Assembly: GCA_026388155.1 (NCBI GenBank)
Contig: JAPLKI010000019.1
Location: 1 to 64,000, forward strand
Length of the DNA: 64,000 nucleotides
Source: Elusimicrobiota bacterium
GTDB taxonomy: Bacteria > Elusimicrobiota > Elusimicrobia > Elusimicrobiales > UBA9959
Direction of reading: 5' to 3'
The translations under genes and the position numbers were made by a program. The notes under the pieces were generated by a model, which ran no database searches, was not told where the DNA came from, and was given only the letters and a program-made list of their open reading frames with translations. Of this stretch, positions 4,395 through 57,715 are shown piece after piece (positions within the stretch are counted from its first letter, which is position 1; each line of letters opens with the position of its first letter).

Positions 4395-4725
4395 GTTTAC
4401 CACTGGGCGGGCCCCGCACTTTTTCCGAAGAGGGCCAAAGTGCGAGGCGGGTAAATATGGATGTGCCGATATTAAGGGTGGGGGAAATACACCTATTAAA
4501 GAAACGCCGGGGAATACGCCAGAGAAACGTAAGACGCGTTGGATTAATGGAGGGGAGGCGGCAGGTTTGTCTGAGGGGGTTTTCCGGAGGCCGACTTGGG
4601 GTTGCAGTCAAGGGAGGCCGAGGATAAGGGCCGACGCGCTGGAGAACCCGACCCCCTCAGACAAATCCGCCGATAGGACCCCGACTATGCTAACCTGCGG
4701 CGTGTTAACCAAAGCTATAGCCCGG
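4395..4725 (+). repeat. Structured intergenic repeat, copy A
   Basis: Shares long blocks with 4885-5222 and 12192-12495: a CCACTGGGCGGG head, a CTATTAAAGAAACGCCGGGG block, the hairpin core, and a tail with CTGCGG and CCAAAGCTATA. Core helix arms are 4564-4580 and 4651-4666 with a 70-nt loop (4581-4650). Its head is interrupted by the hairpin module at 4412-4451. Open frames across it are not conserved between copies. Probably a structured RNA or a non-autonomous element; transcription is unproven. Confidence 0.75.
4412..4451 (+). repeat. Hairpin module inserted in repeat copy A
   Basis: CGCACTTT...AAAGTGCG hairpin (about 34 bp) flanked on both sides by GGCGGG, which looks like a 6-bp target duplication. 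The same hairpin sits at a different place in copy B (5142-5175) and is absent from copy C. Confidence 0.65.
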
Positions 4726-4884
4726 CGTTACCTCGGCAGAGGGGACGTTGCGTCTTTTAGCAACTTATTATTTTTGGCTCGTTTTTAATAACTTCCCCTC
4801 TCCGATATAATTTACCTCCCCAGGAGAATTCAAACCGTTCCCCCGCCGTTACTTTAAAGAAATGGGGTCAGCCACCATTTAATA
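4726..4884. other. Spacer between repeat copies A and B
   Basis: No gene seen. A GATATAAT hexamer region near 4803-4810 could be a -10 box reading toward copy B, but no matching -35 was found. Confidence 0.4.
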
Positions 4885-5222
4885 TTGGCATAAGACTGGC
4901 TGCAACCACTGGGCGGGTGATTGAGATGTATCGTGACAAGGGCGGGGGAAATATACCTATTAAAGAAACGCCGGGGAATACGCCAGAGAAACGTAAGACG
5001 CGTTGGATTAATGGAGGGGAGGCGGCGGGTTTGTTTGAGGGGGTTTTCCGGAAGGCGACTTGGTCTTGCAGTCAGGGGAGCCTGAGGATAAGGGCGGCCG
5101 CGCTGGCCGACCCGACCCCCTCAGACAAACCCGCCGACAGGCCCCCGCACTTTTTCCAAGAGGCCAAAGTGCGGGACAAGCCCCGACTAGGCTATCCTGC
5201 GGTTCTAAACCCAAAGCTATAA
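4885..5222 (+). repeat. Structured intergenic repeat, copy B
   Basis: Closest to copy C in its head (CTGGCTGCAACCACTGGGCG, then GATGTATCGTGA) and to copy A in the middle. Core helix arms are 5024-5044 and 5115-5135: 21 base pairs with one G-U, enclosing a 70-nt loop (5045-5114). Inside the loop GGCC-GCGCT-GGCC can form a second hairpin. A hairpin module sits in its tail at 5142-5175. Confidence 0.8.
5142..5175 (+). repeat. Hairpin module inserted in repeat copy B
   Basis: CCCGCACTTT...AAAGTGCGGG, a perfect 10-bp stem, lies between blocks that are adjacent in copy A (GATAGG and CCCCGACTA). This is the same module as 4412-4451 but at another position of the host repeat. Confidence 0.65.
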
Positions 5223-5297
5223 GCATAAAACGAAAGCGCGGCGGCGGCGCAGCATTTGCGCTGCGGCGCGGTAATTTCTAGAATAGTTCTTAATACA

Positions 5298-6368
5298 ATG
5301 GACAAACTTGACGACCTGCAAGTGGGCGACTGGGTGCGCTGGGGAGGATCCGACTGGGAAGTGACGGACAGGAATGTCTACACTAAATCCAGCGCCTACG
5401 ATGAAGTGCACTGGAAGCTGGAACCGGACATGGGCCAGGAGCGGTACCTTGTCATGTCCAAAGAGGACAAAGGCTCCTCAGTGGAAGAGATATGTGTTTG
5501 CACCAGGGCAACGGGCATAGGCGGAGTGGAATACAGGACGCAGTCCGGCCAGTGGCAGGCCTTCAGGGAAACAGACTCGCTGAAAGAAGCCCCCGCGACG
5601 ATCCGGTTTAAAAACCTGGAATTCGCCCTGGAGGGAGAAACAAGCGGGGAGGATGAAGACGACGACGGCAACACAGTAGTTACCCTGACCTGGGATTACT
5701 ACGACACGCCGCGCTCCATCAACTTTGCCATAGAAATATGGAAAGAGGAGGACGCGGATTATTTTGACGCTTACTACGGGAATGTGACCAAACCGTCGGA
5801 TTTTGAGCTGCTCCCGCACCGGGCTCCGTCGCTGGCTAAAAAAATAAAGGAGGGCGGTCAGGTCATCATCCTCTTCCTTTTTTCCTGCGTTTTTTTTCTG
5901 CCGCTGCTGGCGGGTATTCTGACCGCTTTTGACATAGGCGGCGAGTATGTTTTCGTGAGCGCCATACCCGTTTTGTTGATCCTTATAGCCGGGACTCTCA
6001 CCGTTTCGATCGAACTGCTTGGCGCAGCGCTTATATCCGCCGTTATCGCGGCGGCGCTGCTGATAAAGTTCAGGGGGCTCGGCGCTTCCTACTGGGAATA
6101 TTCCCTTTACGGCGCCATCGCGGGGCCGGCGCTGGTTTCGCTGCTGGGCAAACTGTTCCCCGGCGCCGGGCGCTGGGACAAGCCCCTGGCCGCGGCTAAT
6201 GCCACAATGCTTAGCCTGTGGATAATCAGTTTTGCGCACTACATAACATCCGCCCCCCGGCCCCACGATCCGGGGGAACTGATCGTGGCCTGCGCGCTTC
6301 CTCTTGCGCCGGCCGCGCTGGTACTGGTACTTTATAGGATCAAAGAGACCGTAAATGGAAGATCATAG
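5298..6368 (+). CDS. DUF4178-type membrane protein
   Basis: 356 aa from the ATG at 5298; the longer frame from 5256 adds 14 residues that look non-coding. The N-terminal ~170 residues are soluble (LQVGDWVRWGGSDWEVTDRN, later WKLEPD and a WDYYDTPRSI strand), the layout of DUF4178 domains. From about residue 188 there are five to six membrane segments. It is the first gene of an operon: the next gene overlaps it by 14 bp. Family knowledge: DUF4178, DUF350 and spermidine-synthase-like genes recur together in bacteria, in contexts that include PspA-type envelope stress genes; the biochemical role is not established. Confidence 0.75.
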   Translation: MDKLDDLQVGDWVRWGGSDWEVTDRNVYTKSSAYDEVHWKLEPDMGQERYLVMSKEDKGSSVEEICVCTRATGIGGVEYRTQSGQWQAFRETDSLKEAPATIRFKNLEFALEGETSGEDEDDDGNTVVTLTWDYYDTPRSINFAIEIWKEEDADYFDAYYGNVTKPSDFELLPHRAPSLAKKIKEGGQVIILFLFSCVFFLPLLAGILTAFDIGGEYVFVSAIPVLLILIAGTLTVSIELLGAALISAVIAAALLIKFRGLGASYWEYSLYGAIAGPALVSLLGKLFPGAGRWDKPLAAANATMLSLWIISFAHYITSAPRPHDPGELIVACALPLAPAALVLVLYRIKETVNGRS

Positions 6369-8391
6369 GCTTACTACGAGGGCAGTTCCGGGCGGGCTCG
6401 CCTTCTATATAGACGAGAACCTGCAATTTGACAGCCGCGACGAGGCCGTCTACCACGAGGCCCTGGCGCTGCCGCCTTTGCTTCTGGCGCGCCGGCGGCT
6501 GAAGCGTCCCCTGGACGCGCTAATACTCGGCGGAGGCGACGGCCTGGCGCTCAAGCGCCTGCTTGGAAGCCTCTGCCTGCGCTCCGCCGAACTTGTGGAC
6601 TACGACAACAGCGTGCTGGCGCTCGCGCGCAAAGAGTTCCGGGAATTGAACGGAAACGCGCTTTACGACCCCAGGGCGCGCGTATACGCGCGGGACGCGC
6701 GGGAGCACCTGAAATCTTCACGCGGAATTTTCGACATTGTTTTAGCCGATTTCACTTTCCCCGAAGACCTGGCCGGAGGCTCGCTTTTCACCCGCTCCTT
6801 CTTCGCGGATGCGCGCGCAAGGCTGTCGCCAAAAGGCCTGTTCGCCATGAACGCGGTTTCTCCTGAGCGGTTCCCGGCCGCTTTCTGGTCCATATACAAA
6901 ACCCTTATTGCCGCCAGGCTCTATCCAAGGCCGCTGCGCGTTCCCGTTCCCTCCTTCCGCTCCCATGGCTACGGGGACTGGGGAATGTTCCTGGCGTCCC
7001 CGCTCCCGCTCAAGGACGAAGAATTAAAATCACTGCGTTTTGCGCGCAGCAATTCCTGGCTTACCGGGGAAACTTTCCGGACGGCGCTGCGCCTGCGCGC
7101 GGCCGGTATTGAGCGCGGCCTGCCGCTGAGCAGAGTAATAAGGAAGCCCGGCGACATGCTGGCCCTGATAACCCTGCAGGAGCCCGACCCGGCCGGGGGA
7201 CCCGCGCTGGCCGACTTTTCCGACTCCGCGGCCGTAAAAGAACTGCTCCGGGGCCTGCCGGGCGCTGAAAAGCTCTGGTGGCCGCAGCTCGCGGGCGAGT
7301 GGGAATGGCGCCTTAAGGAAACATTGAAGCGGCTTGACTGGGAGCTTTTCCTTGAGGAACTGGAGAAAAATGCCGGTTCTCTCTCGGATAAAGCGCTTGC
7401 GGAAATACGCGCCCTGCGCGAAAACCTGCCCGATTTTCTTGAAGGCGCCCTGCCGAGCACCGACCGCGCCTGGCAGGTATTCGCCCTGCTGATGACGCTG
7501 CTGGTTTTAGTTAATGTGGCCTATCCCGACAACGCCTACGCAAAAGGCTCGTATTACAGCGGCGGGTCCGGCGGCGGCGGCGACCTTGAGATAACTTTTT
7601 TTATGCAGCAAACCCGTTCACCGCTGCACAATCCCGTATTCCAGGGGGACGATGTCCTGTATACGCTCACCTCCGCCGGTAAGCTCCGCTCGGTGTCTTT
7701 CGTAAAGTACAGGGCCCCCGGGTCGGCCTACGCGATAGGCCGGCTGGTGGAGGACCGCCTGTTCTTCGCTCTCTCGGACGAGTCTTTTGTTTCAAAGAAC
7801 GGCGACCTTTTTATAGCGCCGGGCCCGCAGAACTTCCTTATGAAAGCGCAGCCCGGCGGCTTCCTGTTGCTGGATAAAACCCAGCCCGAGCCTGTGTTCG
7901 AGTTTTACCCCGAGGATAACTCCCTGCAAAACGCGCGCGCAGCGATAGACTTGAACAGTAAGGCGGCGGATAAGGCGCTGGCCGACTATTCCAAATGGCT
8001 CGCCTGGGCCTCCCCCGCGGCCGCTGTTTCCAAAGAAATACGCGCGGAGGAGAATGAAACCCGGAATATTTCCGACATACGGGAAGCCCTTGAAAAAGCG
8101 CGCGCAAACCTGCAGACGGGCGCGCCGGGCCCCCGGCCGGAAATACCTCCGGACTGGTTCCGCCTTGCGCCCGGGCTTTACCTCGCGGGAAACGGAGCTA
8201 TAACGCTTCTGCACAGTAACGGGGGAATATATTCATACCCTTTCAAGGACGTTTCTTCTTCCGCGTACACAGCGCTCCCCGAAAACGAATCCCTGGAAGT
8301 ATTCATTGACGAAATGCTCAAGCTCCGGTGCGCGCAGACCGCGCCCAACGACCCGCGCAAGGCCGTGTTTGAAAAACTTATAAACAGATGA
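6355..8391 (+). CDS. Spermidine-synthase-like methyltransferase-fold protein with membrane-anchored C-terminal domain
   Basis: 678 aa, more than twice a normal spermidine synthase. Residues ~1-230 form the synthase-like Rossmann domain: GGGDG at 59-63, VDYDN acidic loop, YARDAREHL, and VLADFTFPE in place of the usual D(L/S)xDP catalytic loop, so the ordinary aminopropyl transfer is uncertain. A linker leads to a single membrane helix at about 375-393, a Gly/Ser-rich spacer (GGSGGGGD), and ~270 residues of unrecognised domain. The gene overlaps its upstream and downstream neighbours and sits with DUF4178, FemAB and DUF350 genes. The domain calls are sound; the substrate is unknown. Confidence 0.75.
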   Translation: MEDHRLTTRAVPGGLAFYIDENLQFDSRDEAVYHEALALPPLLLARRRLKRPLDALILGGGDGLALKRLLGSLCLRSAELVDYDNSVLALARKEFRELNGNALYDPRARVYARDAREHLKSSRGIFDIVLADFTFPEDLAGGSLFTRSFFADARARLSPKGLFAMNAVSPERFPAAFWSIYKTLIAARLYPRPLRVPVPSFRSHGYGDWGMFLASPLPLKDEELKSLRFARSNSWLTGETFRTALRLRAAGIERGLPLSRVIRKPGDMLALITLQEPDPAGGPALADFSDSAAVKELLRGLPGAEKLWWPQLAGEWEWRLKETLKRLDWELFLEELEKNAGSLSDKALAEIRALRENLPDFLEGALPSTDRAWQVFALLMTLLVLVNVAYPDNAYAKGSYYSGGSGGGGDLEITFFMQQTRSPLHNPVFQGDDVLYTLTSAGKLRSVSFVKYRAPGSAYAIGRLVEDRLFFALSDESFVSKNGDLFIAPGPQNFLMKAQPGGFLLLDKTQPEPVFEFYPEDNSLQNARAAIDLNSKAADKALADYSKWLAWASPAAAVSKEIRAEENETRNISDIREALEKARANLQTGAPGPRPEIPPDWFRLAPGLYLAGNGAITLLHSNGGIYSYPFKDVSSSAYTALPENESLEVFIDEMLKLRCAQTAPNDPRKAVFEKLINR

Positions 8392-9410
8392 GAATAAAAC
8401 CGCTTAAAAAAGAGCATTCATCCGCCTGGAACGGGCTCGTGCGCTCTTCGGAGTGTGCCGGTTTCATGCAGAGCTGGGAATGGAGCGAATTTAAAGAAGC
8501 GGAAGGGGCGCGGGTAGAACGGCTGGGTATTTTTGACGGCCCCTCGCTCACCGCGGGCGCCATAGTCTACAGGGTTGAAACCTCGCTCGGCGTATCCCCG
8601 CTTACAATTCCGCACGGCCCGGTGCTGCCATGGGGCGACAAAACAAAGGCCGCGGCCTGCTTCGCCCTGTTGAAAGAGCGCCTGAGCGCCTTGTCCGAAA
8701 GAACCGGCTCTCCCGTAGCCCGGATCGAGCCGTTCATCTGCTCGCAACCGGATTTCCTTCAGGGCCTTGTGCGCGCCCCGCTTGACCTGGTGCCCACGCC
8801 GACGCTTATGCTTGAGCTGGGGAAAGGCGACGCTGAACTGCTCGGGGCGATGACACAGAAGGGACGGTACAATGTCCGGCTGGCCCTGCGCAAAGGCGTG
8901 GAGGTAATATCCTCCGGCGTGAACGACCTCACCGGCGAATTCCACGAATTATTCGAGCTGACCTGCCACCGGCACGGCTTCGCGGGTGAGCCTGTCGGGT
9001 TTTTCAGGCGTCTCATTGACGCGCTGGGACCCGCCGGCATGGCGCGCGTTTACCTGGCCTCCCATATGGGTATAAAGACGGCGGCCGCGGTGGCGGTATT
9101 CTTCGGCAACAGGGCGACATATTTGTACGGCGGCACCTCCCCGTTCCTGCGTTCCAGCATGGCAAGCTACGCTATGCACTGGCGCATTATACGCGACGCC
9201 CGGGACATGGGCTTTAAGTTCTACGACCTATACGGCATAGCCCCTGGGGACAAGCCGTTCCACCCCTACGCCAGGTTTTCTTCTTTCAAGGCGCGTTTCG
9301 GCGGCGCGCAGGTGCGCACTATAGGCGCGCATGACCTTTATTTTTACCCGCAATTGGCCAAAACGCTGGTTTCCCGGATAGGGCTCGCGGTAAAAGGATC
9401 CACCATATGA
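8388..9410 (+). CDS. FemAB-family (GNAT-fold) aminoacyltransferase-like protein
   Basis: 340 aa. It has the two-GNAT layout of the FemAB/FemX family: an N-terminal FMQSWEWSEFKE segment, a central QKGRYNVRLALRKGVEV segment, and the C-terminal YLYGGTSPFLRSSMASYAMH and FYDLYGIAPGD blocks. Members transfer amino acids to peptidoglycan precursors or modify other surface polymers; some act in exopolysaccharide loci. Start overlaps the previous stop by 4 bp (ATGA) and the next gene starts 4 bp before its end, so translation is coupled. It may ligate an amino acid or polyamine to an envelope component, given the spermidine-synthase-like neighbour (inference). Confidence 0.8.
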   Translation: MRIKPLKKEHSSAWNGLVRSSECAGFMQSWEWSEFKEAEGARVERLGIFDGPSLTAGAIVYRVETSLGVSPLTIPHGPVLPWGDKTKAAACFALLKERLSALSERTGSPVARIEPFICSQPDFLQGLVRAPLDLVPTPTLMLELGKGDAELLGAMTQKGRYNVRLALRKGVEVISSGVNDLTGEFHELFELTCHRHGFAGEPVGFFRRLIDALGPAGMARVYLASHMGIKTAAAVAVFFGNRATYLYGGTSPFLRSSMASYAMHWRIIRDARDMGFKFYDLYGIAPGDKPFHPYARFSSFKARFGGAQVRTIGAHDLYFYPQLAKTLVSRIGLAVKGSTI

Positions 9411-10255
9411 CAGAAATGCTGAACCATATTTTAAAATCCCTGGGCTACGGCCTGATGGCCATAGCCTTATGCTACCTGGCAAGACTTATATACAGGCTGA
9501 ACCCCGCGCGGGGAAAACTGGACTGGCAGCTGCTGTCCTCTAAAAACCCGGCCGCGGCGATAGGCGCCGGCGGTTATTTCCTCGCCGTGATCATCTCGCT
9601 GGGCGGCCCCATTTCCTGGGTTTCAGAATCTTTCAGGCAGGGAGCGCTGGAGGTTATAGGTTTCGGGGCGCTGGCACTGGCGCTGCTGAACGCTTCAATG
9701 TGGATGGCGGACAGGACTTATCTTAAAAGCCTCCGCCTGGACGCAAGGATCAACAAAGGCTCCACGGGCGCCGGTCTGCTTAGGGCGGCCCATGAGATAG
9801 CGCTGGGTTTGGTGATACTCGGCGCGTCGTGGGGCGACGCGGGCGGCATATGGGTGATGGTTTCCTTCTGGGGGCTGGGACAACTGCTGCTTGCCGCCGC
9901 CATAAAGCTATATTTCACGCTGGCAAAACTGGATTTGGCGGCCCAGCTTGATAAAAACAATACGGCGGCGGCAATAAGCGCCGCCGGCATCATGATCGGC
10001 TTCGGTTTTATCGCCTGGGCGGCGCTCTCGGGCCCGTTCCTGGGCTGGATCCGCAGCACGGCGGAAACCGCCGCTTATTATGCGGCGGGAACGCTTGGAT
10101 TGCTTATTTTCCGGGCCGCGGCGGACCTTGCCCTGCTCCCGGGCGCAACCTTCAGAGCGGAAGTTATGAAAGAGCCGGGCAACAGAGCGGTGGGCGTAAT
10201 GGATGCCTCGCTGACCATAGGCATAGCCATACTGATGACTTGGTGCCTTATATAG
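9407..10255 (+). CDS. DUF350-family membrane protein, duplicated
   Basis: 282 aa with about eight hydrophobic segments arranged as two similar halves. Each half carries the DUF350 signature, an Asn-x-Ala-Ala-x-Ile-x-Ala-Gly helix start: KNPAAAIGAGGYFLAV in the first half and NNTAAAISAAGIMIGFGF in the second, with NRAVGVMDASLTIGIAIL at the end. DUF350 proteins (for example E. coli YjfL) are integral membrane proteins of unclear function. The gene lies in the coupled operon with DUF4178 and the spermidine-synthase fusion. Confidence 0.8.
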   Translation: MTEMLNHILKSLGYGLMAIALCYLARLIYRLNPARGKLDWQLLSSKNPAAAIGAGGYFLAVIISLGGPISWVSESFRQGALEVIGFGALALALLNASMWMADRTYLKSLRLDARINKGSTGAGLLRAAHEIALGLVILGASWGDAGGIWVMVSFWGLGQLLLAAAIKLYFTLAKLDLAAQLDKNNTAAAISAAGIMIGFGFIAWAALSGPFLGWIRSTAETAAYYAAGTLGLLIFRAAADLALLPGATFRAEVMKEPGNRAVGVMDASLTIGIAILMTWCLI

Positions 10256-10267
10256 TGAGAACAGCTT

Positions 10268-12139
10268 GTGAACTTTACTAAAAATATTTCCAGCGACGGA
10301 CAGGGACCTGCCGCAGCCCCGGACGCGGCCGTTGACAAGAATCCTGCCGGGGAAAACTTTCCCTGGCGCACCGCGCTGCGTTCCATATTGCTGTTCCTCG
10401 CGGCAGTGCTGCCTGTGGCATTCTATCTGAGGACCTACGATTCCGTAACTGTTAAGACAACTATAATGCAGCTTGGGGTACTAGCCGCGGCAGCGGTATG
10501 GCTTATCGGAAGCCTGAACGACGGACGCATTGAAATATCTTCTAAAACCGCGCCGCTTATCCTGCCGGCGGCGCTTCTGCTTATATGGAACGGGCTTTCT
10601 TTTTTACATTCTCCTTACCGCCTTGCCTCGACGGACGGATTCATCAAGCAGGAGGCGTTCCTGCTTTCCTTCATCCTCACGCTGATCAGTTTCCCGCGGC
10701 GGGACGTCCGAAAGGCGGTACTGGTGATGCTGGCGGCCTGGGCGGCCATAGTTGTATACGGGTTCCTGCAATCCACAGGGGTGGACCCTTTCGTCTGGAA
10801 AGGCGCGTTCGGCGACCGGCTGTTCGCCACCCTGGCCAATCCCAACCTGTTCTCGGCATACCTGCTGCTCCTGTTCCCGCTGGGCCTGGCGCTGATGTGC
10901 GACGGCGGGGTGCCGGCCGGGCTTCGCTCCGCGGCGGGAGCGTTCTCACTGATCGGGGTATTTCTGGCAATAAAAACGGGCTCCTCTTCGGGGAAGACCG
11001 CCTCCATCATCGCAGCCGTCATCTTCATTATATCGGCCTGGAGGTCCATAAAAGAAGGACAGCGGGGCCGGACGCTGGTATTCGCCGGAATGTGCGCGAT
11101 AATATTCCTTATCTCCTTTCCCTTCATGGCGCAGCAGAGCCGGCCTGACCGCGACCACGACTTCCGGCTGCAAACGCGGGAGGGCGCGGTTTCGCTGATA
11201 AAGAACCAGCCCTGGATGGGCTCCGGCCCCGGTTCGTTCTGGGTCAGATACCCGGCTTTCCGAAAACAACAGATCTTCTTCATCGAACAGAAACACAACA
11301 ACGAAACGGACCACCCCGAAAACGAACTGCTGGAGCAGTGCGCGGACACCGGCCTGGTGGGGGCGTTCCTGTGGCTGTGGCTGTTCTGCATTGTGATATT
11401 CAGGGGCGGCAGCGCCCTGCTGAATGGCGACCGGGAGGATGACTCCATATACACCGCCGGACTTTTGGCCGCCACGCTCGCAAGCGTGCTGCTGGCGTTA
11501 AACGGCATCTCGACGCGTTTTGTAGCGCCGGGCTGGCTGATATACTTCAGCGCGGGACTTCTGGGAGCGGCCTCCTCCGGGAAACAGGGAGAGCCGGATT
11601 CCGTCCTGACATTTCCGCTGTCTTTCGGGGGAGTGGAACGAATACTTTTCATCCCGATACTGGCCGGGGCCGTTTACCTGGGCTATGGTTCGATAAAAAT
11701 ATTCCGATCTGACCTCTGCCACAACATCGGCATATTCTACGCGAAAGCGGGCAATTGGGATGAGGCCGCCAAAAATTTCGGGCAGGAATCCCAGGCGGCG
11801 CCCACTTATATAATGAGCCGATACTTCCTTGGCAACGCTTTCCAGGACCGTGGCGGCCCCGGGGACTATGAGCGCGCGCTGAAGGAATACCGTAATGTAC
11901 GGAGCATGGCCCCGGACTATGTACAGGTGCATTTTCAGGAAGCGCGGGCACTGGAGAAATTAAACCGCATCCCCGAAGCGATAGAGCGCATGGAAAGGCA
12001 GGTCCGGCTGGACCCGGTCTGGGATACGGCTTGGCTTGAACTGGCCGGGCTTTACGGAAAAGCCGGCAATATAGAAAAAGCGCAGCAGGCCGCTAAACAG
12101 GCCGAAGCTGTAAAAGCCATGTGGACAGTCCGACATTAA
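10268..12139 (+). CDS. O-antigen ligase/polymerase-like membrane protein with C-terminal TPRs
   Basis: 623 aa, GTG start 12 bp after the previous gene. About ten to twelve membrane segments form a Wzy/WaaL-type domain; the large periplasmic loop contains GSGPGSFWVRYPAFR and the His-containing HNNETDHPENELLEQCADTG, matching the family's conserved loop before the last helices. From about residue 480 there are TPR-like repeats (AGNWDEAAKNF, YERALKEYRNV, IPEAIERMERQ, AGNIEKAQQAA). Such Wzy-TPR proteins ligate or polymerise surface glycans, or glycosylate pilins. It is the last gene of the envelope operon. Confidence 0.8.
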   Translation: MNFTKNISSDGQGPAAAPDAAVDKNPAGENFPWRTALRSILLFLAAVLPVAFYLRTYDSVTVKTTIMQLGVLAAAAVWLIGSLNDGRIEISSKTAPLILPAALLLIWNGLSFLHSPYRLASTDGFIKQEAFLLSFILTLISFPRRDVRKAVLVMLAAWAAIVVYGFLQSTGVDPFVWKGAFGDRLFATLANPNLFSAYLLLLFPLGLALMCDGGVPAGLRSAAGAFSLIGVFLAIKTGSSSGKTASIIAAVIFIISAWRSIKEGQRGRTLVFAGMCAIIFLISFPFMAQQSRPDRDHDFRLQTREGAVSLIKNQPWMGSGPGSFWVRYPAFRKQQIFFIEQKHNNETDHPENELLEQCADTGLVGAFLWLWLFCIVIFRGGSALLNGDREDDSIYTAGLLAATLASVLLALNGISTRFVAPGWLIYFSAGLLGAASSGKQGEPDSVLTFPLSFGGVERILFIPILAGAVYLGYGSIKIFRSDLCHNIGIFYAKAGNWDEAAKNFGQESQAAPTYIMSRYFLGNAFQDRGGPGDYERALKEYRNVRSMAPDYVQVHFQEARALEKLNRIPEAIERMERQVRLDPVWDTAWLELAGLYGKAGNIEKAQQAAKQAEAVKAMWTVRH

Positions 12140-12191
12140 GTCTCACGCAAAAACTCCGGTTTTTTAAAGAAAATTCCCCCGCGTATGTGGA

Positions 12192-12495
12192 CGTTAGATA
12201 TTTGCATAAGTCTGGCTGCGACCACTGGGCGGGTGATTAGGATGTATCGTGAAAAGGGTGGGGGGATATCACCTAATAATTTAAGAAGCGCCGGGTTAAG
12301 AGCTGGAGGAACGTAACCTAGTGAAGGGGTGGCACCGGGGTTTGTTCGCGGGGGTTTTCCGGAAGGCGACTTGGGCGTGCAGTCAATGGAGCCTGAGGAT
12401 AAGGGCGGCCGCGCTGGCCGACCCGACCCCCGCGGACAAATTCCGGTGACAGGCCCCCGTGTGCAACTATACAACCCACCCGCCAAAGCCATAAA
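12192..12495 (+). repeat. Structured intergenic repeat, copy C
   Basis: The most diverged copy; it lacks the hairpin module. Core helix arms are 12333-12355 and 12426-12448: 23 pairs counting G-U, enclosing a loop of exactly 70 nt (12356-12425), the same length as in A and B. Relative to A/B the helix changes GAGG/CCTC to GCGG/CCGC and T-A to C-G, compensatory substitutions. The conserved loop starts TTTCCGGAAGGCGACTTGG. It fills most of the gap 12140-12541; nothing else was seen there. Confidence 0.8.
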
Positions 12496-16629: not shown

Positions 16630-17691
16630 TTAATACTGGCTCCAGGAATAAGCGGCGGCTGCGGGCTGCGCGCTCAGCGGGCCTGTATAGGAGGCATTGC
16701 CGCCTATGGTGTATTCCTGCGTGCCGCCCTGGTCGGTGCGGTATATGGCGGCTCCCGCGGCCTGCAGGCGGGACAACGCCGCCTGTGTGGGGTGGCCGTA
16801 TGAATTGTTCGCGCCCACTTCAATATACGCCGCTTTCGGCTGCACCTTGTTTAAGAAAGCCGCGCTGGATGCTCCCGCGCTGCCGTGGTGCCCCACCTTA
16901 ATGACATCGGACTGGAGCTGGGCGCCGTATTTTTGCACCAGCTGCGCTTCCACATCGGACTGCATATCGCCGGTGTATAGAAGGGAGGTGTTCTGGTAGG
17001 TGACGCGGAGCACAATAGAGCAGTTGTTAAGCACGGTGCCGTTGCTGCTGGACCCGGGTGTGGAGCAGCTGTGCAGCACTTTCACCTGAACTTCGCCGGG
17101 GTCCCAGTTGAGGGTATCGCCCTCCGCGGGATAGGAAACGTTCACTCCCATGCTGCTGATTTTGGCGCGCAAAGTTTTTATGGTGGAGGAGCCGGTATTT
17201 TCCTCCTGGGTATCGTAAAAATTGCTTACCTGCAAATGGCTGAAAACATAATCAAGCCCGGTATAATGGTCGGAGTGCGGATGGGTCAACAGAACATAAT
17301 CTATCTTTGTCACATTGTGCTGGCTGAGGAACTGCGCCACAAGCGGGTCGCCGGAGCCCGCGGGATTTGCGGGGCCGCCGTCTATAAGCACGTTCTTGCC
17401 GTTGGGCAGCTCTATATATTCTGAATCGCCCTGGCCCACATTGATAAAGTAGGCGTGTAAGGCGCCGGCGGAGGATAGAACAGCCGTCGGGGCCGGCACG
17501 GCCGGCATATCGCCCGTGTTTGCAACGGCGGTTTTAAGAGGGATATTACTCAGGCCGGCAAAAGGCTCCCGGCTTTTGAGGGTTTCAATGCTGTCCGCCG
17601 CGCAAAGGCGCGCCGTATTCAGGAGGAGAAGCGATGAGAGGATTGTAGCAGTGAGGAAGAACCTGTTGTTGCGTTCAATGTTGCTGACCAT
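16630..17691 (-). CDS. Exported ComEC-type metallo-beta-lactamase-fold hydrolase
   Basis: 353 aa. Start at 17691 chosen because AGAGGTGG precedes it; the frame from 17730 has no ribosome site. Signal peptide (FFLTATILSSLLLLN...LCAA) and then a ComEC/Rec2-like MBL domain: FINVGQGDSEYIELPNG, VLIDGGP, LLTHPHSDHYTG (metal ligands), LLYTGDMQSD, VIKVGHHGS and a late EVGANNSYGHPT. In ComEC this domain is a nuclease beside a channel; here there is no channel, so it is a free exported hydrolase, perhaps a phosphodiesterase or nuclease. A 24-bp operator array lies upstream (17804-17871) and a terminator follows. Confidence 0.8.
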   Translation of the reverse strand: MVSNIERNNRFFLTATILSSLLLLNTARLCAADSIETLKSREPFAGLSNIPLKTAVANTGDMPAVPAPTAVLSSAGALHAYFINVGQGDSEYIELPNGKNVLIDGGPANPAGSGDPLVAQFLSQHNVTKIDYVLLTHPHSDHYTGLDYVFSHLQVSNFYDTQEENTGSSTIKTLRAKISSMGVNVSYPAEGDTLNWDPGEVQVKVLHSCSTPGSSSNGTVLNNCSIVLRVTYQNTSLLYTGDMQSDVEAQLVQKYGAQLQSDVIKVGHHGSAGASSAAFLNKVQPKAAYIEVGANNSYGHPTQAALSRLQAAGAAIYRTDQGGTQEYTIGGNASYTGPLSAQPAAAAYSWSQY

Positions 17692-17800
17692 GGTAATCCA
17701 CCTCTTATTCCGTGCCGGAATCTGCGCCATGGTGACTTCCGATTGGGGTCAGAAGGTGGATGCTCCCCGGCCAATTCCGAGGATTACATGTTGCAATGAG

Positions 17801-48713: not shown

Positions 48714-48734
48714 AATGGAAATACAAGAAAATCC

Positions 48735-48840
48735 CTTCTCTAATCCCTAGTCTCTATTCTTTATTCTACGCCATACATAAGGGACTCCTTCCCTATTCGC
48801 TATTTGCTATTCTCTATTCGCTGCTGTATGGCTGCTCGCT
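48735..48840. repeat. Heptanucleotide repeat tract, CTATTCG family
   Basis: CTAATCC, CTAGTCT, CTATTCT, TTATTCT and later CTATTCG, CTATTTG, CTATTCT, CTATTCG, the inverse-complement family of the TAGCGAA tracts elsewhere. Confidence 0.85.
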
Positions 48841-48844
48841 GCCG

Positions 48845-49399
48845 TTACAACCCCAATTCCGTCGCCACGCCGCGCATGGCCTCAACCGAGAGAGCGGCAA
48901 ATTCCTCCAGCGGTATACCTATCTGCTCGCATTCCATAATGACGCTTCTGTCAATGGAAGCGGCAAAACGCTTATCTTTCATTCTTTTCACAACCGAAGA
49001 GGTCTTAACGCTTGAAAGTTTTTTATCGGGGTAAACCAGCGCGGTGGCGGTAACAAGGCCGGTAATTGTTTCACCGGCAGCCAAAGCTTTATGGAAAATT
49101 TCAGCCCTGGATTTACCGTGAGCGGTCTCATTATGCATTTTAACGGCTTCAATGATCTCCGGAGCGAGTCCGTTTTCTGTTAATATTTTTTCAGCTTCCA
49201 GCGTATGCCGTTTCAAATCGCCTCCGGTAAGTTCCACGTCTATGTCGTGCAGAAGGCCCGCCATAGCCCATATTTCCGCGTCCGCGCCAAGTCTCAGGGC
49301 CAGCGCCCGCATTACGGCCTCCGACGCAAGGCAGTGTTTCACCAGGTTTTCATTCTTAACATGCTTCTTAAGCAGTTCCAAAGCTTTTTCTCTTTCCAT
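48845..49399 (-). CDS. HD-domain (HDIG-type) phosphohydrolase
   Basis: 184 aa from the ATG at 49399, which has GGAG six bases before; ATG 49411 is the alternative. HD signatures: KHCLASEAVMRALA, LLHDIDVE, HTLEAEKILTENG and a late HNETAHG. The family covers nucleotide and cyclic-nucleotide phosphohydrolases; substrate unknown. Flanked on both sides by heptanucleotide tracts. Confidence 0.85.
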   Translation of the reverse strand: MEREKALELLKKHVKNENLVKHCLASEAVMRALALRLGADAEIWAMAGLLHDIDVELTGGDLKRHTLEAEKILTENGLAPEIIEAVKMHNETAHGKSRAEIFHKALAAGETITGLVTATALVYPDKKLSSVKTSSVVKRMKDKRFAASIDRSVIMECEQIGIPLEEFAALSVEAMRGVATELGL

Positions 49400-49439
49400 A
49401 GTATTCTCCATGCCGCTGAACGGCTTAGCAGCTTTTGGC

Positions 49440-49492
49440 GGAGTTCATTTTTCTTCCCTATTCGCTTTTCGCTAATCCCTATTCGCTGCCTT
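49440..49492. repeat. Heptanucleotide repeat tract, CTATTCG family
   Basis: CTATTCG, CTTTTCG, CTAATCC, CTATTCG, CTGCC, ending at the asnS stop. Confidence 0.8.
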
Positions 49493-50894
49493 AGAACTCT
49501 GCCCAGCCGGGGACGCGGGGGTAGGCGGTAACATCCCTGATATTGGAAATCCCGGTAACAAGCATCATCATTCGTTCAAACCCGAGGCCAAAGCCTGAAT
49601 GGGGCACCGAACCGAAGCGCCTCAGGTCAAGATACCACTGGTAGCTTTCGGTATCTATCTTAAAATCGGCCATTTTTTTCTCAAGCACATCCAGTCGGTT
49701 TTCGCGCTCGCTGCCGCCTATAAGTTCGCCTATGCGCGGCACCAGTAAGTCCATGCCACGCACCGTGCGCCCGTCGTCATTCAGCTTCATGTAAAAGGCT
49801 GCCGCGTCCTTTGGTTTGTTGTATAGAATTACCGGCTTCTTGAAATACTTTTCCGTCAAAAATCTTTCATGTTCCGAGGCCAGGTCGACGCCCCATGACA
49901 CCTTGGTTTCAAATTTTGAATTATTCGGCTCCAGTATTTTCACCGCGTCGCTGTATGTCAGGCGCTCATAAGCGTTATCTGAGACATTTTTAAGCGTTTC
50001 CATAAGTGCCGGATCGACGAATTTAGCAAAAAGCTCAATGTCTTCGGCGCAATGCTCCAGTGTATGGCGGGTAATGCTTTTCACGAAATCTTCGGCCAGC
50101 GACATATCGTCTTCAAGCTCGTAGAACGCCATCTCCGGCTCTATCATCCAGAACTCGGCACAGTGGCGGTAAGTGTTTGAGTTCTCGGCTCTGAAAGTGG
50201 GGCCAAAAGTGTAAATTTTACCGAGGGCGAGGGCTAATGTTTCTCCCTCAAGCTGTCCTGAAACGGTGAGATAAGTTTTTTTTCCAAAAAAGTCCTTTGA
50301 AAAATCCAGCCCGCCTTTCTCGGTTTTAGGCAGGGCCGCAACATTTGAAAGGTCAAGGCTTGAAACCGAGAACATCTGGCCCGCGCCTTCGCAGTCGGAA
50401 CCTGTGATAATGGGAGTATGAACGTAAAAAAAACCGTTATTCCTGAAATAATTGTGGATGGCAAAGGAGAGTTCCGCGCGCACGCGCAGCATGGAAGCGT
50501 ACTTGTTGGTGCGGGGGCGCAGGTGGGCCACGGTGCGCATAAATTCGTCGGAGGTTTTTTTCTTCTGTATCGGGTATTTTTCGGGATCGCATTCGCCGTA
50601 TAGCTCGACTTTTTTTACGCGCAGTTCCCACTTTTGCCTGGCGCCTTCAGGCGCGGCCACCAGGTCGCCCGTAACCGCGACGGCAGCGCCCGTAAGCAGG
50701 CGCGGCAGCACCAAAGAGAAGTCGCCGTTTTCAGCCGAAAAGATAAGTTGTAGATTTTCCCTGGCGGAACCGTCGTTTAATTCAGCGAAAGAGCAGGATT
50801 TGGAATCGCGCCTGGTCCGTATCCAGCCTTTAACCGTGATATCTTTAAGTTCCGAACCGCCGGCGAGGAGGGTTTTTACCGTGGGGGATGGCAT
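49491..50894 (-). CDS. asnS: Asparaginyl-tRNA synthetase
   Basis: 467 aa, class IIb. OB-fold start VKGWIRTRRDSKSCSFAELNDGS, HLRPRTNKYASMLRVRAEL, motif 2 FRAENSNTYRHCAEFWMIEPE, motif 3 GFGLGFERMMMLVTG and the closing YPRVPGWAEF. The HxAEFWMxExE block separates AsnRS from AspRS. Charges tRNA-Asn directly. Confidence 0.96.
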   Translation of the reverse strand: MPSPTVKTLLAGGSELKDITVKGWIRTRRDSKSCSFAELNDGSARENLQLIFSAENGDFSLVLPRLLTGAAVAVTGDLVAAPEGARQKWELRVKKVELYGECDPEKYPIQKKKTSDEFMRTVAHLRPRTNKYASMLRVRAELSFAIHNYFRNNGFFYVHTPIITGSDCEGAGQMFSVSSLDLSNVAALPKTEKGGLDFSKDFFGKKTYLTVSGQLEGETLALALGKIYTFGPTFRAENSNTYRHCAEFWMIEPEMAFYELEDDMSLAEDFVKSITRHTLEHCAEDIELFAKFVDPALMETLKNVSDNAYERLTYSDAVKILEPNNSKFETKVSWGVDLASEHERFLTEKYFKKPVILYNKPKDAAAFYMKLNDDGRTVRGMDLLVPRIGELIGGSERENRLDVLEKKMADFKIDTESYQWYLDLRRFGSVPHSGFGLGFERMMMLVTGISNIRDVTAYPRVPGWAEF

Positions 50895-50936
50895 GCTGGA
50901 ATTCCTTCATTGCTAATTCGCGTTATTCGCGGGCCG

Positions 50937-51473
50937 CTATCTGGTCCTGGAGATTTTCTTTTTTTCTCCCGGAACTTTGGTTATCTCCGTCAGTTCCACT
51001 TCGCAGGTTTTATCCTCGCCCGTGTACTCTTCCAGAATGTAGCCAACGCCGGGGGCGTAATAGCGCACTGACTTGCCCGCATCTCCGCCGGCAAGCATGT
51101 TGACAATTTTCATGCATTTTTGGAATTTACCGGCTTTGATGGAAACTTTGTCGGAAAGGGAAACTATCTCATTTGAGTCCGGATTCTCATCCCATCTAAA
51201 TCCCTCTTTTGGAGGCAGGGGGAATTCCCTTCTGCCGCCTACGATTACGCCGTCCGCCGTTGTAAGCCACTTGGCGTCCTTGGTTATGGTGTATTCGGTG
51301 GTATGAGAATCCCTCAGCTCAAAGATCATCCGGGCCTGGGCCACGGTTTTACCCGGCTTTTTGGCGACTTTAAGTATGTCAATGAAGATCTTAGCCACAC
51401 CCTCAAACTCCGTGCTCTTGAATTTGTATTCGTAGCGGGTATTTTCTTTAAGCGGGAAATAATCTGCGGACAT
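50937..51473 (-). CDS. Conserved-looking protein of unknown function (DUF3108-like pattern)
   Basis: 178 aa, no signal peptide. Starts YFPLKENTRYEYKFKSTEFEG; later SIKAGKFQKCMKIVNML and YYAPGVGYILEEYTGE. This beta-rich pattern (Y-P-L-x-x-x-x-x-Y-x-Y ... A-G-x-F-x-x-C ... Y-A-P-G-V-G) resembles DUF3108-like domains, usually exported; here no leader is visible, so the start may be wrong or the protein cytoplasmic. Confidence 0.6.
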   Translation of the reverse strand: MSADYFPLKENTRYEYKFKSTEFEGVAKIFIDILKVAKKPGKTVAQARMIFELRDSHTTEYTITKDAKWLTTADGVIVGGRREFPLPPKEGFRWDENPDSNEIVSLSDKVSIKAGKFQKCMKIVNMLAGGDAGKSVRYYAPGVGYILEEYTGEDKTCEVELTEITKVPGEKKKISRTR

Positions 51474-51474
51474 T

Positions 51475-51605
51475 TAACCTCCGGAAAGTAAGCTCAGGCA
51501 TTAGCGAGTTCTGGAGTTATAGAGCTAAGAAGCTCAGAACTCGGCGACTTATCAAGCCTTACCAATCCTAAACTTCCAACTCTTAACTCTCAACTATTGA
51601 CGTAT
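51475..51605. repeat. Loose repeat tract between the 178-aa gene and tRNA-Ala
   Basis: AGTTCTGGAGTTATAGAGCT and inverted AGCTCAGAACT-type words with partial 7-nt rhythm; no gene. Confidence 0.4.
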
Positions 51606-51614
51606 CTTAAAATC

Positions 51615-51690
51615 TGGTGGACGTGACAGGGATCGAACCTGCGACCTCCTCGTTGCGAACGAGGCGCTCTCCCAACTGAGCTACACGCCC
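51615..51690 (-). tRNA. tRNA-Ala (anticodon CGC), CCA encoded
   Basis: 76 nt on the minus strand. Acceptor GGGCGTG/CACGTCC with the alanine identity pair G3-U70, D arm GCTC...GAGC, anticodon stem CCTCG/CGAGG with loop TTCGCAA (anticodon CGC), T arm with TTCGATC, discriminator A and encoded CCA. Reads GCG codons. Confidence 0.95.
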
Positions 51691-51699
51691 AAAACTGCA

Positions 51700-51785
51700 G
51701 CGAACAGTGCATAGCAAATAGCGAATAGTGGCATAAAAGATTTAGGTAACTCCTTCCCTATTCGCTACTCGCTATTTCCTATCTG
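51700..51785. repeat. Heptanucleotide repeat tract, TAGCGAA family
   Basis: ATAGCAA, ATAGCGA, ATAGTGG and inverse CTATTCG, CTACTCG, CTATTTC. The mltG stop codon lies inside this tract. Confidence 0.85.
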
Positions 51786-52726
51786 CTGTTCCTTGCTTCA
51801 TGTTCCACGCGCCGTTTGGCCTTCTTATGCTCCTCGAAATTGGCGTTAAAAATATGTTTCCCTCTTCGATCGGCCACAAAATAAAGGGCGTCGATCTCCG
51901 CCGGAGCGATAACCGCGGCCACGGATTCATAGCCCGGGTTGCATATCGGCCCCGGAGGCAACCCGCCCACAGCATAGGTATTGTACGGCGACTTAACACG
52001 CAAATCCGTGAGCGTAATGCCTTTTTTCCAATATCCTAAAGCGTATTGTACGGTAGGGTCGGCTTCAAGCGCCATTTTTTTGCGATAGCGGTTTAAATAA
52101 ACCGCCGCGATCAACGGACGCTCCGCCGCGTCTACCGCTTCCCGCTCCACTATAGAAGCGATAACAAGGACCTTCTTTTCATCCAGCCCCTGCGGGAACC
52201 CTTTAGAGAACAAAGGCGCTATCTGTCTGTCAAATTCAGATTTTAGCAAATTAATCACTTCCCGCGCGGGCGTATTTTTTTTGAGGTAATAAGTTGAAGG
52301 GAAAAGCATTCCCTCAAGTTTTTCTTTTCTGACCAGCGCCAGGAACGGCTCCACCCTTGTAACGCCGTTCGCCTCAAGGCGCTCGGCTATCTGCTCGGCG
52401 CGCCAGCCCTCCGGGATGTTTACCTTGATTTGGCTGACATAGTTGTTATGAATAAGACGCCACAAGGCCTCTTCCGCGGACATTCCGCGCCTGAGGGAAT
52501 AGTCGCCCGGCATTATTTTTTTCCCGGTGCCGGTTAACTTTACAAGCGCCCTGAACCAGGTGGCGCTTATTATAACGCCTTCGCGTTTCAGGATCTGGGC
52601 CGCCTGGGCCGCGCCGGCTCCCTCATTAATGGTAACTTTCAGCTCCTGGCCGGGCCAAAATAAATAAAGAGAAAGCGCTATTATTGCCGCAGCAAGAACT
52701 AACGCGATTGATTTAAGTTTTTTCAT
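51779..52726 (-). CDS. mltG: Endolytic murein transglycosylase MltG (YceG-like)
   Basis: 315 aa. One N-terminal membrane helix, a LysM-like segment (VNIPEGWRAEQIAERLEANG), and the catalytic block VLVIASIVEREAVDAAERPLIAAVYLNR with the Glu of IVERE; later LEADPTVQYALG, SPYNTY and GLPPGPICNPG. Cleaves nascent glycan strands to set their length. The last residues (RNSR) and stop are made of heptanucleotide-repeat DNA. Overlaps thpR by 14 bp. Confidence 0.93.
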   Translation of the reverse strand: MKKLKSIALVLAAAIIALSLYLFWPGQELKVTINEGAGAAQAAQILKREGVIISATWFRALVKLTGTGKKIMPGDYSLRRGMSAEEALWRLIHNNYVSQIKVNIPEGWRAEQIAERLEANGVTRVEPFLALVRKEKLEGMLFPSTYYLKKNTPAREVINLLKSEFDRQIAPLFSKGFPQGLDEKKVLVIASIVEREAVDAAERPLIAAVYLNRYRKKMALEADPTVQYALGYWKKGITLTDLRVKSPYNTYAVGGLPPGPICNPGYESVAAVIAPAEIDALYFVADRRGKHIFNANFEEHKKAKRRVEHEARNSR

Positions 52727-53285
52727 AAGCCCTAAGTTGCCTGCTGTACACCCGCCTGTATAACGGACCGTCCGGGGTGAGTACGCTTTCCATCACTTCC
52801 ATCGAAGCCAGAGCCGATACCGCTTTTTTTGTTACGGCGTAGTCCGCCGCGCGCCTGAAAAAATTTCCAGGCAGAGTCTTCTTAACCCGGCCAAGGGTGA
52901 TATGCGGCTCAAAACGGTTTTCAAACGCCAAACCGCGCCCGGAAAGCGCCTGCGACAGTTTTTCAGCTATTTCACGCAAAGCCGGGGCACCCTCATTAAA
53001 TCCGAGCCACAGCACACGCGGATTACGCGGCGAGGGGAAAGCTCCGAGAGCGCCTGAGACCAGTGCAAAAGACTTGCGGCCTTCAATGGCGGCGTCCACA
53101 CTTTTTATCGCCGCTGCGGCGCCGCTATCGGACACTTCCCCCAGAAAGGCATAGGTCAGGTGAAAATTAGCGCGTTCCACCCATTTTACAGTGTCACCGC
53201 CCGCATTCGCGCGCGCATAGGCCGTAATCTCCTCCAGGGTTTCAATAAACTGCGGCTCAAAGGAGGAGGCGATAAAAAGCCGCAT
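52713..53285 (-). CDS. thpR: RNA 2',3'-cyclic phosphodiesterase ThpR
   Basis: 190 aa, 2H phosphoesterase fold. Two HxT motifs: FHLTYAFLGE and FEPHITLGRVKKT. The family hydrolyses 2',3'-cyclic RNA ends (2'-5' RNA ligase activity in vitro). Lies between the FecR-like gene (5 bp upstream) and mltG (overlap), a compact operon. Confidence 0.9.
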   Translation of the reverse strand: MRLFIASSFEPQFIETLEEITAYARANAGGDTVKWVERANFHLTYAFLGEVSDSGAAAAIKSVDAAIEGRKSFALVSGALGAFPSPRNPRVLWLGFNEGAPALREIAEKLSQALSGRGLAFENRFEPHITLGRVKKTLPGNFFRRAADYAVTKKAVSALASMEVMESVLTPDGPLYRRVYSRQLRAYEKT

Positions 53286-53290
53286 CCGGG

Positions 53291-54193
53291 CTACTCCGGT
53301 TCCGTTTTCGGGCCCGGACGCTTGGCCTTGGTCTTGGCCTTGCGGCTGGCGCCTGCTTTCACGGCGTGTTTTTTAGCGCCGTTTTTAACCTTTATCTGTC
53401 GGCGTATGATATGGCGTTTCAGCGCCTGGTCGCGCAGAGCCGAGCGGTTAGCCTGCGAAGCGGGCAGCCAGGTTTTTTTAAGCGTTTTCATGCGCTGACG
53501 CATAAGGATCACACCGGCGCGGTAGCGGGTCATTTTTGCAAGCGGCATGGGCCTGAAATGTTTCTGCGAGGCTTTAAAAGTAAGTTCCGTATTTTTTTCC
53601 AGCAGATATTCCTGCCCCGGCTCTTCCTTTTCGTCAAGGGCGTTTACGGCTACTTTTCCCTCGTCATAAACCGCCACGCTGGTTTCCTTGCCAAGCTGAG
53701 AATATTCCACGGCAAATTCCGTGCCCCGCACGGAGCAGACGGCGGATGGCGTTTTCACCTGCATTTTAAATTTCTCGTTCAGAAAATGCTGTATTTTTGC
53801 CGCTATCGAGCCTGCTTTAAGCGTAAAGCTGGATTCCGTCTTTTCAACAGAGACAAACTCCAGTTCGGTGTTTCTACCCAGCGTCATGGAGCCCTTGTCA
53901 TCAAGATAAATTTCAGCGGTGCCGTCGGAGCTGGTTTTCACCGAGTCTCCCTTTTCAAGGGGCATGGCTCCCTCTATTTTTGACCACTCATCTGCGCCTT
54001 CGGGCTTTACAGAAACTTCGCCGGAAACGCGTTTCAGGCGCGCGTCCCAGCTTTCCGAATTTCCCTGGCCGTACTTGCCGGACTTCATAGCGTCTTCCAT
54101 AATCTGTTTGTAGTCCGGAGAGTCAGAGCCCGGCTGCTGCGCCCGGGCCGCCGTCCAACACGCCAGAATCGCCAGAACTAATATTTTTTTCAT
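53291..54193 (-). CDS. Exported FecR-domain protein with basic tail
   Basis: 300 aa. Signal peptide to ARA-QQ. FecR domain around residues 50-190 (VSGEVSVKPEGADEW, GDSVKTSSDGTAEIYLDDKGSMTLG, FTLKAGSIAAKIQ, VKTPSAVCSVRGTEFAV), usually a periplasmic sandwich. The last ~90 residues are Arg/Lys-rich (RHIIRRQIKVKNGAKKHAV...), an uncommon tail that could bind nucleic acid or acidic polymers. No sigma factor or TonB receptor nearby, so not a classic Fec system. Confidence 0.75.
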   Translation of the reverse strand: MKKILVLAILACWTAARAQQPGSDSPDYKQIMEDAMKSGKYGQGNSESWDARLKRVSGEVSVKPEGADEWSKIEGAMPLEKGDSVKTSSDGTAEIYLDDKGSMTLGRNTELEFVSVEKTESSFTLKAGSIAAKIQHFLNEKFKMQVKTPSAVCSVRGTEFAVEYSQLGKETSVAVYDEGKVAVNALDEKEEPGQEYLLEKNTELTFKASQKHFRPMPLAKMTRYRAGVILMRQRMKTLKKTWLPASQANRSALRDQALKRHIIRRQIKVKNGAKKHAVKAGASRKAKTKAKRPGPKTEPE

Positions 54194-54274
54194 AAATCCC
54201 TTATGAGCCGCGCACTCAGTGGGCCGCTGGCTTAACCGTTCAATGAATTGTGAGCTTCGCTCACCCGGCAGCCC

Positions 54275-55447
54275 CTATTTCACCAATTTTCTGAACTGTC
54301 GCTTCCCTACCTGAAGCACGCAATCTTTCGGCTCAAAAATCATGTCTTCCGACACTTTTCCGCCGTCAAGGCGCACAGCCCCCTGCGCTATAAGGCGCCG
54401 GGCCTCGTTGGTCCCGCCGCACACGCCGCAGGCCGCCATAAGCTGCGAAAGTTTACCCGGCTTTTCAACCTTAAAGATCTCCATTTCCGCCGGTAATTCA
54501 TTTTTTGAAAAAACTTTCTCAAACTGCTCCCTGGCTAGCGCGGCCTCTTCGCGGCCGTGATACTTTTCAATTAAAAACCCCGCCAGGCGTTTTTTTGCCT
54601 CCATGGGATGAAGCTTTTTTATTTCCGCCGGGTCCAAGCCGGTAAGCAGACCGTAATAGTCAAACATCAGACCGTCCGAGACCGACATAAGTTTACCGAA
54701 CATTTCACCGGGAGGATCGTTCAAGGCCACATAGTTACCGTACGATTTTGACATTTTTTTAACGCCGTCCGTGCCTAAAAGAAGCGGCATCGTCATTACA
54801 ACCTGCGGTTCCTGGGAGTAAAGCTTTTGCAGATCGCGGCCTACCAGCAGATTGAATATCTGGTCCTGCCCGCCAAGTTCTATGTCGGCTTTCACGGCCA
54901 CGGAGTCGTATCCCTGGAACACCGGATAAAGTATTTCAAGCAGGCTTACGGGGCTTCCGGCTTTCATGCGGGTTTTAAAATCATCCCGCTCAAGCAGGCG
55001 GGAAACGGTTATGTTCTTCGCCACCCCTATCAGGCCGGATACACCCGCCGAGGCGTCGGCTACAAAGGGCTTAAGCCATTCGCCGTTAAAGCTTATCTCG
55101 GTTTTAGCTTTATCAAGCACCTTGAAAGCCTGCTGTGTGTAAGTTTCCGCGTTTTGTTGCACCGTTTTCTGGTCTATTACCGGGCGGGTGGAATCGCGGC
55201 CGGAAGGATCGCCGACCTGGGCGGTAAAATCGCCTATAATGAGCACGGCGGTGTGGCCGAGATCCTGAAATTGCCGCAGCTTGCCAAGAACAACGCTGTG
55301 GCCAAGGTGCAAATCGCGGCTGGTGGGGTCGACTCCGAGTTTGATCCTGAGTTTTTTGCCGGAGGAAAGTTTTTTGGCAAGTTCCTCCCGGCTTACTATA
55401 TCGCTGCACCCCCGCGTTATTTCCTTTAAAATTTCTTCGTTGGTCAT
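54275..55447 (-). CDS. tyrS: Tyrosyl-tRNA synthetase
   Basis: 390 aa, class I. HIGH-type motif LHLGHSVVLGKL, KMSKS as KKMSKSYGN, tyrosine-pocket VKADIELGGQDQIFNLL, C-terminal S4 domain (RLIAQGAVRLDGGKVSED). Charges tRNA-Tyr. Confidence 0.95.
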   Translation of the reverse strand: MTNEEILKEITRGCSDIVSREELAKKLSSGKKLRIKLGVDPTSRDLHLGHSVVLGKLRQFQDLGHTAVLIIGDFTAQVGDPSGRDSTRPVIDQKTVQQNAETYTQQAFKVLDKAKTEISFNGEWLKPFVADASAGVSGLIGVAKNITVSRLLERDDFKTRMKAGSPVSLLEILYPVFQGYDSVAVKADIELGGQDQIFNLLVGRDLQKLYSQEPQVVMTMPLLLGTDGVKKMSKSYGNYVALNDPPGEMFGKLMSVSDGLMFDYYGLLTGLDPAEIKKLHPMEAKKRLAGFLIEKYHGREEAALAREQFEKVFSKNELPAEMEIFKVEKPGKLSQLMAACGVCGGTNEARRLIAQGAVRLDGGKVSEDMIFEPKDCVLQVGKRQFRKLVK

Positions 55448-55517
55448 ACTATCAACTATTTTATTATTTTTTTACGGCCTGTTCCCACTTATTTACATCC
55501 GGTTACAGGCTTTCGGC

Positions 55518-57596: not shown

Positions 57597-57715
57597 ATAA
57601 TAGGGACAGCGAATAGCAAATAGCAAGAAACAGCAGATGAAGACGGCAATATTAAGGAACTCCTTCCCTATTCGCTACTTCGCTATTCGCTATTTGCTAT
57701 CTTACTATTCGCTAA
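57597..57715. repeat. Heptanucleotide repeat tract, TAGCGAA family
   Basis: TAGCGAA, TAGCAAA, TAGCAAG then, after a gap, CTATTCG, CTACTTCG, CTATTCG, CTATTTG, CTATCTT, CTATTCG. The two halves are inverted relative to each other. The uracil-DNA-glycosylase stop codon lies within it. Confidence 0.9.

Follow-up and report, generated by a model that had tools for sequence, protein, structure and literature searches.

The window, a 64,000-nt stretch of an Elusimicrobiota contig, contains three copies of a repeat, A, B and C, which we located at 4395-5200 and 12192-12495; the sequence at these positions agrees with its initial annotation. Each copy has a folded core on the + strand that was placed with A1, an alignment of 32 copies from three species of the window's genus, which align well. 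The core of copy A (4552-4682) comprises an outer GGGG/CCCC stem and four further helices, P1, P1b, P2 and P3. It is also delimited by the consensus fold and by a match to our R1 covariance model at 4546-4682, and has a folding z-score of -4.1. The core of copy B (5016-5145), placed in the same way, scores 158 bits with R1 and has a z-score of -6.1. In copy C (12326-12457), the consensus fold is also the minimum-energy fold of the single sequence, and this copy has an ortholog in a sister species (G001). Across the single-sequence RNA folds, z ranges from -4.1 to -6.6 relative to dinucleotide shuffles.

Several smaller features accompany the cores. Copies B and C have a 5' domain on the + strand (4911-4946 and 12227-12262, respectively) with two GGGYGGG motifs 29 nt apart, and a motif resembling this domain is present in genus g6. 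Inspected by eye as -35 and -10 boxes, the GGGYGGG repeats do not have convincing promoter spacing. In copy A, a longer form of the + strand element (4503-4729) could be closed by an outermost helix pairing AACGCCGGG (4503-4511) with CCCGGCGTT (4721-4729), which we regard as a candidate only because it is conserved yet hardly variable. A second, small palindrome that is unrelated to the main element lies within copy A (4412-4447, CCCCGCACTTT...AAAGTGCGAGG) and at the 3' edge of copy B (5144-5175), with no strand assigned. This palindrome (CCCCGCACTTTTTCC...AAAGTGCGGGG) is also present elsewhere in the genome (L026, L028, L018) and is found nested at the GGGG/CCCC edges of the main element.

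The core is best described in copy C, where the long covarying helix P1 is formed by a 5' arm at 12333-12356 and a 3' arm at 12425-12448, all on the + strand. P1b (12358-12360/12397-12399, +) encloses hairpin P2 (12364-12367/12391-12394, +), which falls within the P1b span of 12358-12399, and hairpin P3 (12403-12424, +) is present in both the consensus and the single-sequence fold. The initial annotation had described a three-copy element with an invariant 70-nt loop. The interval closed by P1 is indeed exactly 70 nt in the three window copies (4581-4650, 5045-5114 and 12356-12425), but it is itself folded into P1b, P2 and P3, and its length varies in other copies, with 6-nt and 1-nt indels in A1 and an additional ~45 nt in some copies of a second sister species (G002). 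The supposed loop is thus the junction of the P1 stem with P1b and the P2 and P3 hairpins. Nor is the element limited to three copies, as collecting all genomic copies with a whole-genome search found ~24 places. In contrast, the reported differences between the helices are real, and a pair-by-pair comparison of the window copies bears out that pairing is kept: copies A and C differ by 7 doubly changed pairs, with 2 broken, and copies B and C by 4, with 0 broken.

The consensus fold derived from A1 consists of the long stem P1, its inner continuation P1b enclosing hairpin P2, and then hairpin P3. Within the window's genus, 23 of the 37 pairs have changes on both sides and 97.0% of cells are paired, versus only 36-54% when the partners are slid, and none of 500 shuffles reaches any of the five measures. 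Because kinship survives shuffling, we sought independent repeats of the fold in other clades, using model-free alignments of mixed g4 and g9 genomes, family f15, genus g6 and the deep families f28/f29. The P1, P1b and P2 layout was recovered in all four, each with its own covariation; P3 was recovered in all but f15, with just three P3 pairs in the g4/g9 set. Five independently made alignments from separate clades therefore give essentially one fold. Among 69 distant matches, both-side changes affect 34 of the 37 pairs and 92.2% of cells are paired versus 36-50% for slid partners, an alignment that was fitted to the model and is hence biased towards it. Minimum-energy folds of copy C and of an insertion sequence copy from family f15 (G220) reproduce the consensus, including P3, and the GNA/GA internal loop of P1b/P2 is conserved across clades.

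The earlier proposal of a selected RNA fold is strongly supported by this covariation in five clades, which in the window's genus exceeds both the shuffle and the slid-partner controls, as well as by the comparison of copy C with its ortholog (below). The element combines covariation beyond controls with conserved unpaired bases and strand-specific wobble. In particular, paired columns of A1 contain 46 GU versus 9 AC combinations, leaving out one constant U-G pair, and the corresponding GU/AC counts are 134/23, 62/4 and 55/6 in A2, A3 and A5. An A-C combination is what a G-U wobble of the opposite strand would look like, so the excess of GU identifies the + strand of the window as the folded strand. 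Single-stranded DNA tolerates G-T wobble too, and the counts therefore fix the strand more firmly than the molecule. We considered a protein-coding repeat and rejected it: the 1-nt and 6-nt indels between copies in A1 break any shared frame, in line with the initial view that no protein frame is conserved.

How widely the element is found depends on the search. Besides the places in the window's own genome, DNA similarity gave 16 matches in one sister species, 12 in another and weak ones in a single further genus. A covariance model, as the initial annotation had suggested building, extended this range well beyond the genome of origin. R1 has matches in 37 of 341 related genomes, and R2, a broader model derived from the matches of R1 itself, in 67 of 341, covering 20 genera and including families outside the window's class. 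These sequences are metagenome assemblies, and copy numbers are lower bounds because ~10 candidates were scored per genome. A scan of a genome collection with a genus-type pattern gave matches in Elusimicrobia only. Plasmid and phage collections had no blastn match, 747 kb of pattern-matched viral contigs had 0 model matches, and degenerate patterns in viral contigs returned either sequences rejected by the model or nothing. The copies are numerous and mostly intergenic.

The suggested link to insertion sequences holds for family f15, where the partner is an IS1380-type DDE transposase and not IscB or TnpB. In G192, the fold (L173, 7796-7925) follows the transposase stop codon and precedes the right inverted repeat; the element ends in CCCCCCCAATCCTCGG inverted repeats, with no target duplication seen. 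G219 has the same gene order, and in the f15 carriers the fold is in sense orientation to the transposase, which matches DDE_Tnp_1_4 (PF13701) with E=3e-46 in G192, 4.8e-43 in G220 and 1.2e-42 in G219. The G220 element is complete: its 1640 bp contain transposase, fold and inverted repeats CCCAAATCCTCA, and a perfect 6-bp target duplication, CATATT, borders it on either side. The inverted repeats and the duplication place the fold inside a genuine insertion sequence. We found 37 copies of a terminal sequence in G212, mostly at contig ends, where recent repeats typically sit, with the insertion sequence bodies unassembled; the fold is present at some of these ends, and different hairpins at others.

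Apparent IS1380 derivatives in G217 lack the transposase, yet have IS1380-like ends and keep the fold. Their left part contains a different large hairpin (L423 2980-3370 (-), L422 2590-2980), so both ends may be structured. Related hairpins are found at the left insertion sequence end in G019 and G212, in the opposite orientation, which fits poorly with a simple role in the transposase mRNA and makes a DNA-level function possible. Only f15 shows a clear link to IS1380. PF13701 has 0 matches in the three genomes of the window's genus (G000, G001 and G002), and neither inverted repeats nor a target duplication was established for any window copy. In another IS1380 lineage (L218, L219; G152, G138; ends TCCCAAAAGCTCACGTAA), the 3' region is long and noncoding and has apparent hairpins of its own, which do not match the model. 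In our literature search, we found no account of a conserved RNA fold located between an IS1380 transposase stop and the right end, and nothing on structured RNAs of IS1380 or Elusimicrobia.

These findings point to an undescribed mobile RNA family. We favor a model, at a probability of roughly 0.6, in which the element is a selected RNA module of mobile elements, with a putative role, that has here been amplified as non-autonomous repeats. The three window copies would then be non-autonomous members of a repeat family with the selected fold encoded in a ~130-nt core. In f15, the element would be transcribed as the 3' portion of the transposase mRNA; in other clades, its own promoters or neighboring ones would drive transcription. 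The fold and its invariant junction bases could bind a protein or ligand and act, at the RNA level, on behalf of the mobile element, most likely by controlling the transposase mRNA or by holding the transposase near its own ends. Stand-alone copies would be non-autonomous derivatives that kept the RNA and lost the gene. A bolder version, which we consider a long shot, is that this phylum-wide mobile structured RNA has a working role in DDE transposition: at its 3' end, the IS1380 transposase transcript would fold into an RNA that binds the transposase or the ends of the element, and stand-alone copies would be RNA-bearing parasites or domesticated derivatives mobilized in trans.

Conserved RNA folds in mobile elements have repeatedly proved functional, as is known for the guide RNAs of IscB and TnpB. 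Here, compensatory change has preserved a fold across several classes of a phylum; one family has it inside a DDE-transposase element and others have amplified it by itself, which makes it a candidate functional mobile-element RNA. The covariance model and the 1640-bp G220 element make this idea directly testable, and a repeat that matches no Rfam family can now be identified in dozens of genomes.

The most serious competitor to a mobile RNA, although one to which we give only about a quarter of the weight, is a DNA-level palindromic repeat, MITE or REP-like, whose hairpin is recognized as DNA by a transposase or host protein. The extruded single strand would have to fold, and this need would maintain the pairing; selection on a DNA hairpin could also preserve pairing, and the tolerance of single-stranded DNA for G-T would accommodate wobble as well. 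The core ends, GGGG...CCCC, are sharp, and the units of genus g4 are ~290-bp head-to-head inverted pairs. Judged from simple ORF picks as gene calls, the gaps holding copies are more commonly convergent (18/47) or codirectional (23/47) than divergent (6/47), which also speaks for such a repeat. The genome also has four Y1_Tnp (RAYT-type) transposase genes, one ~1 kb from a copy. However, the RAYT gene at L057 is flanked by a different palindrome. The wobble asymmetry and the junction bases that stay unpaired and invariant across classes also argue against recognition as DNA. REP and REPIN sequences mobilized with RAYT are likewise palindromic and multi-copy, and the inverted pairs of g4 recall them, but our element is branched and larger than known REPs.

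Two observations concern these palindromes and pairs. The L057 gene (G000:C21:73623), a RAYT-type Y1 transposase, has AAAAGGTAGCGTCTACCTTTTT-like palindromes on both sides, and a stretch similar to these lies at ~4335 in the window, just upstream of copy A. In g4 (L146, L148, L125), the pair partner has the same outer frame and a different apical structure, and is perhaps a second subtype.

Somewhat less probable still is that the element is a stand-alone, multi-copy family of host noncoding RNA genes, captured secondarily by the IS1380 elements of f15. In its favor, no attached insertion sequence was found in most clades read (f1, f12, f28, f29), and some copies are kept at orthologous places (window copy C and L037; L034, L042 and L045). 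A host gene family would nonetheless be unusual in its variable copy number, in having no fixed neighboring gene and in its presence and absence between sister species. Copies A and B are absent from the orthologous place in G001. In G002, copy C is missing next to the orthologous gene, and a plain terminator-like hairpin is found there. The copies of the window's genus stand alone and were gained or lost between sister species.

We also considered that the helices differ because various hairpins that already existed each received the conserved apical part in their loop, and not through stepwise compensation. The copy at L180 (G218) suggests such an event, as its apical part is nearly identical to that of the G219 insertion sequence copies while its outer stem is wholly different yet paired. 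Copy C and its G001 ortholog, which have orthologous flanks and share the loop motif CAGTCAATGGAG, tell otherwise: 27 pairs are the same, 9 are changed on both sides, 1 is changed on one side and 0 are broken. Gene conversion from other copies is a possible source of these pair changes. P2 and P3, within the apical part, covary as well, and we find apical insertion an improbable explanation.

HEARO/omega-RNA was one of two identities offered initially. That insertion sequences carry a structured RNA speaks for kinship with it or with some other nuclease guide RNA, but such kinship is very improbable, given the lack of an Rfam match at gathering score, the absence of TnpB from the genome, carriers that encode a DDE transposase, and a negative IscB search whose control was silent. 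The Rfam comparison at gathering thresholds covered the element in the window and six carrier loci from other clades, and no family, HEARO (RF02033) included, reached threshold; HEARO had no match to 4880-5300 up to E=5. Other known RNAs were rejected for this interval, since the eukaryotic microRNA, snRNA, snoRNA and IRES models that it matched fell far below gathering. The TnpB zinc ribbon (PF07282) has 0 matches in the window's own genome with a working control, and IscB (RRXRR, PF14239) has 0 in 12 genomes, a search in which the positive control was silent. The IscB gene carries HEARO RNA in its 5' UTR (PMC9755519), whereas the f15 RNA lies 3' of a DDE transposase gene. The other identity offered, an unrelated large noncoding RNA, fits better.

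Among known systems, the f15 carriers resemble the IS1380 family in their transposase and terminal inverted repeats, with the 6-bp target duplication of G220, unlike the window copies, which have no transposase. Those copies are closer to the bacterial MITEs reviewed as Correia/NEMIS, RUP, RPE and ERIC, whose predicted transcripts form long stem-loops (PMC2229807). Like these small (~100-200 bp), multi-copy, mostly intergenic and non-autonomous repeats, the element is short, noncoding and non-autonomous, with its ~130-nt core present at ~24 places. It differs in being a multi-helix junction with invariant internal-loop bases and strong covariation across a phylum, and in lying inside an autonomous insertion sequence in f15. 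It behaves like a bacterial MITE, with a fold more elaborate and more constrained than the MITE stem-loops in that review.

Two further features of the window were recorded. Degenerate CTATTCGCTATTCGC-type repeats occur in several places at 48731-57713, and similar runs are found near elements at other loci. Rfam identifies a 2dG-II (2'-deoxyguanosine) riboswitch at 17724-17794 on the - strand with 73.7 bits, just upstream of a - strand ORF (16630-17730, 366 aa) whose translation reads as a putative secreted metallo-beta-lactamase/ComEC-type hydrolase.
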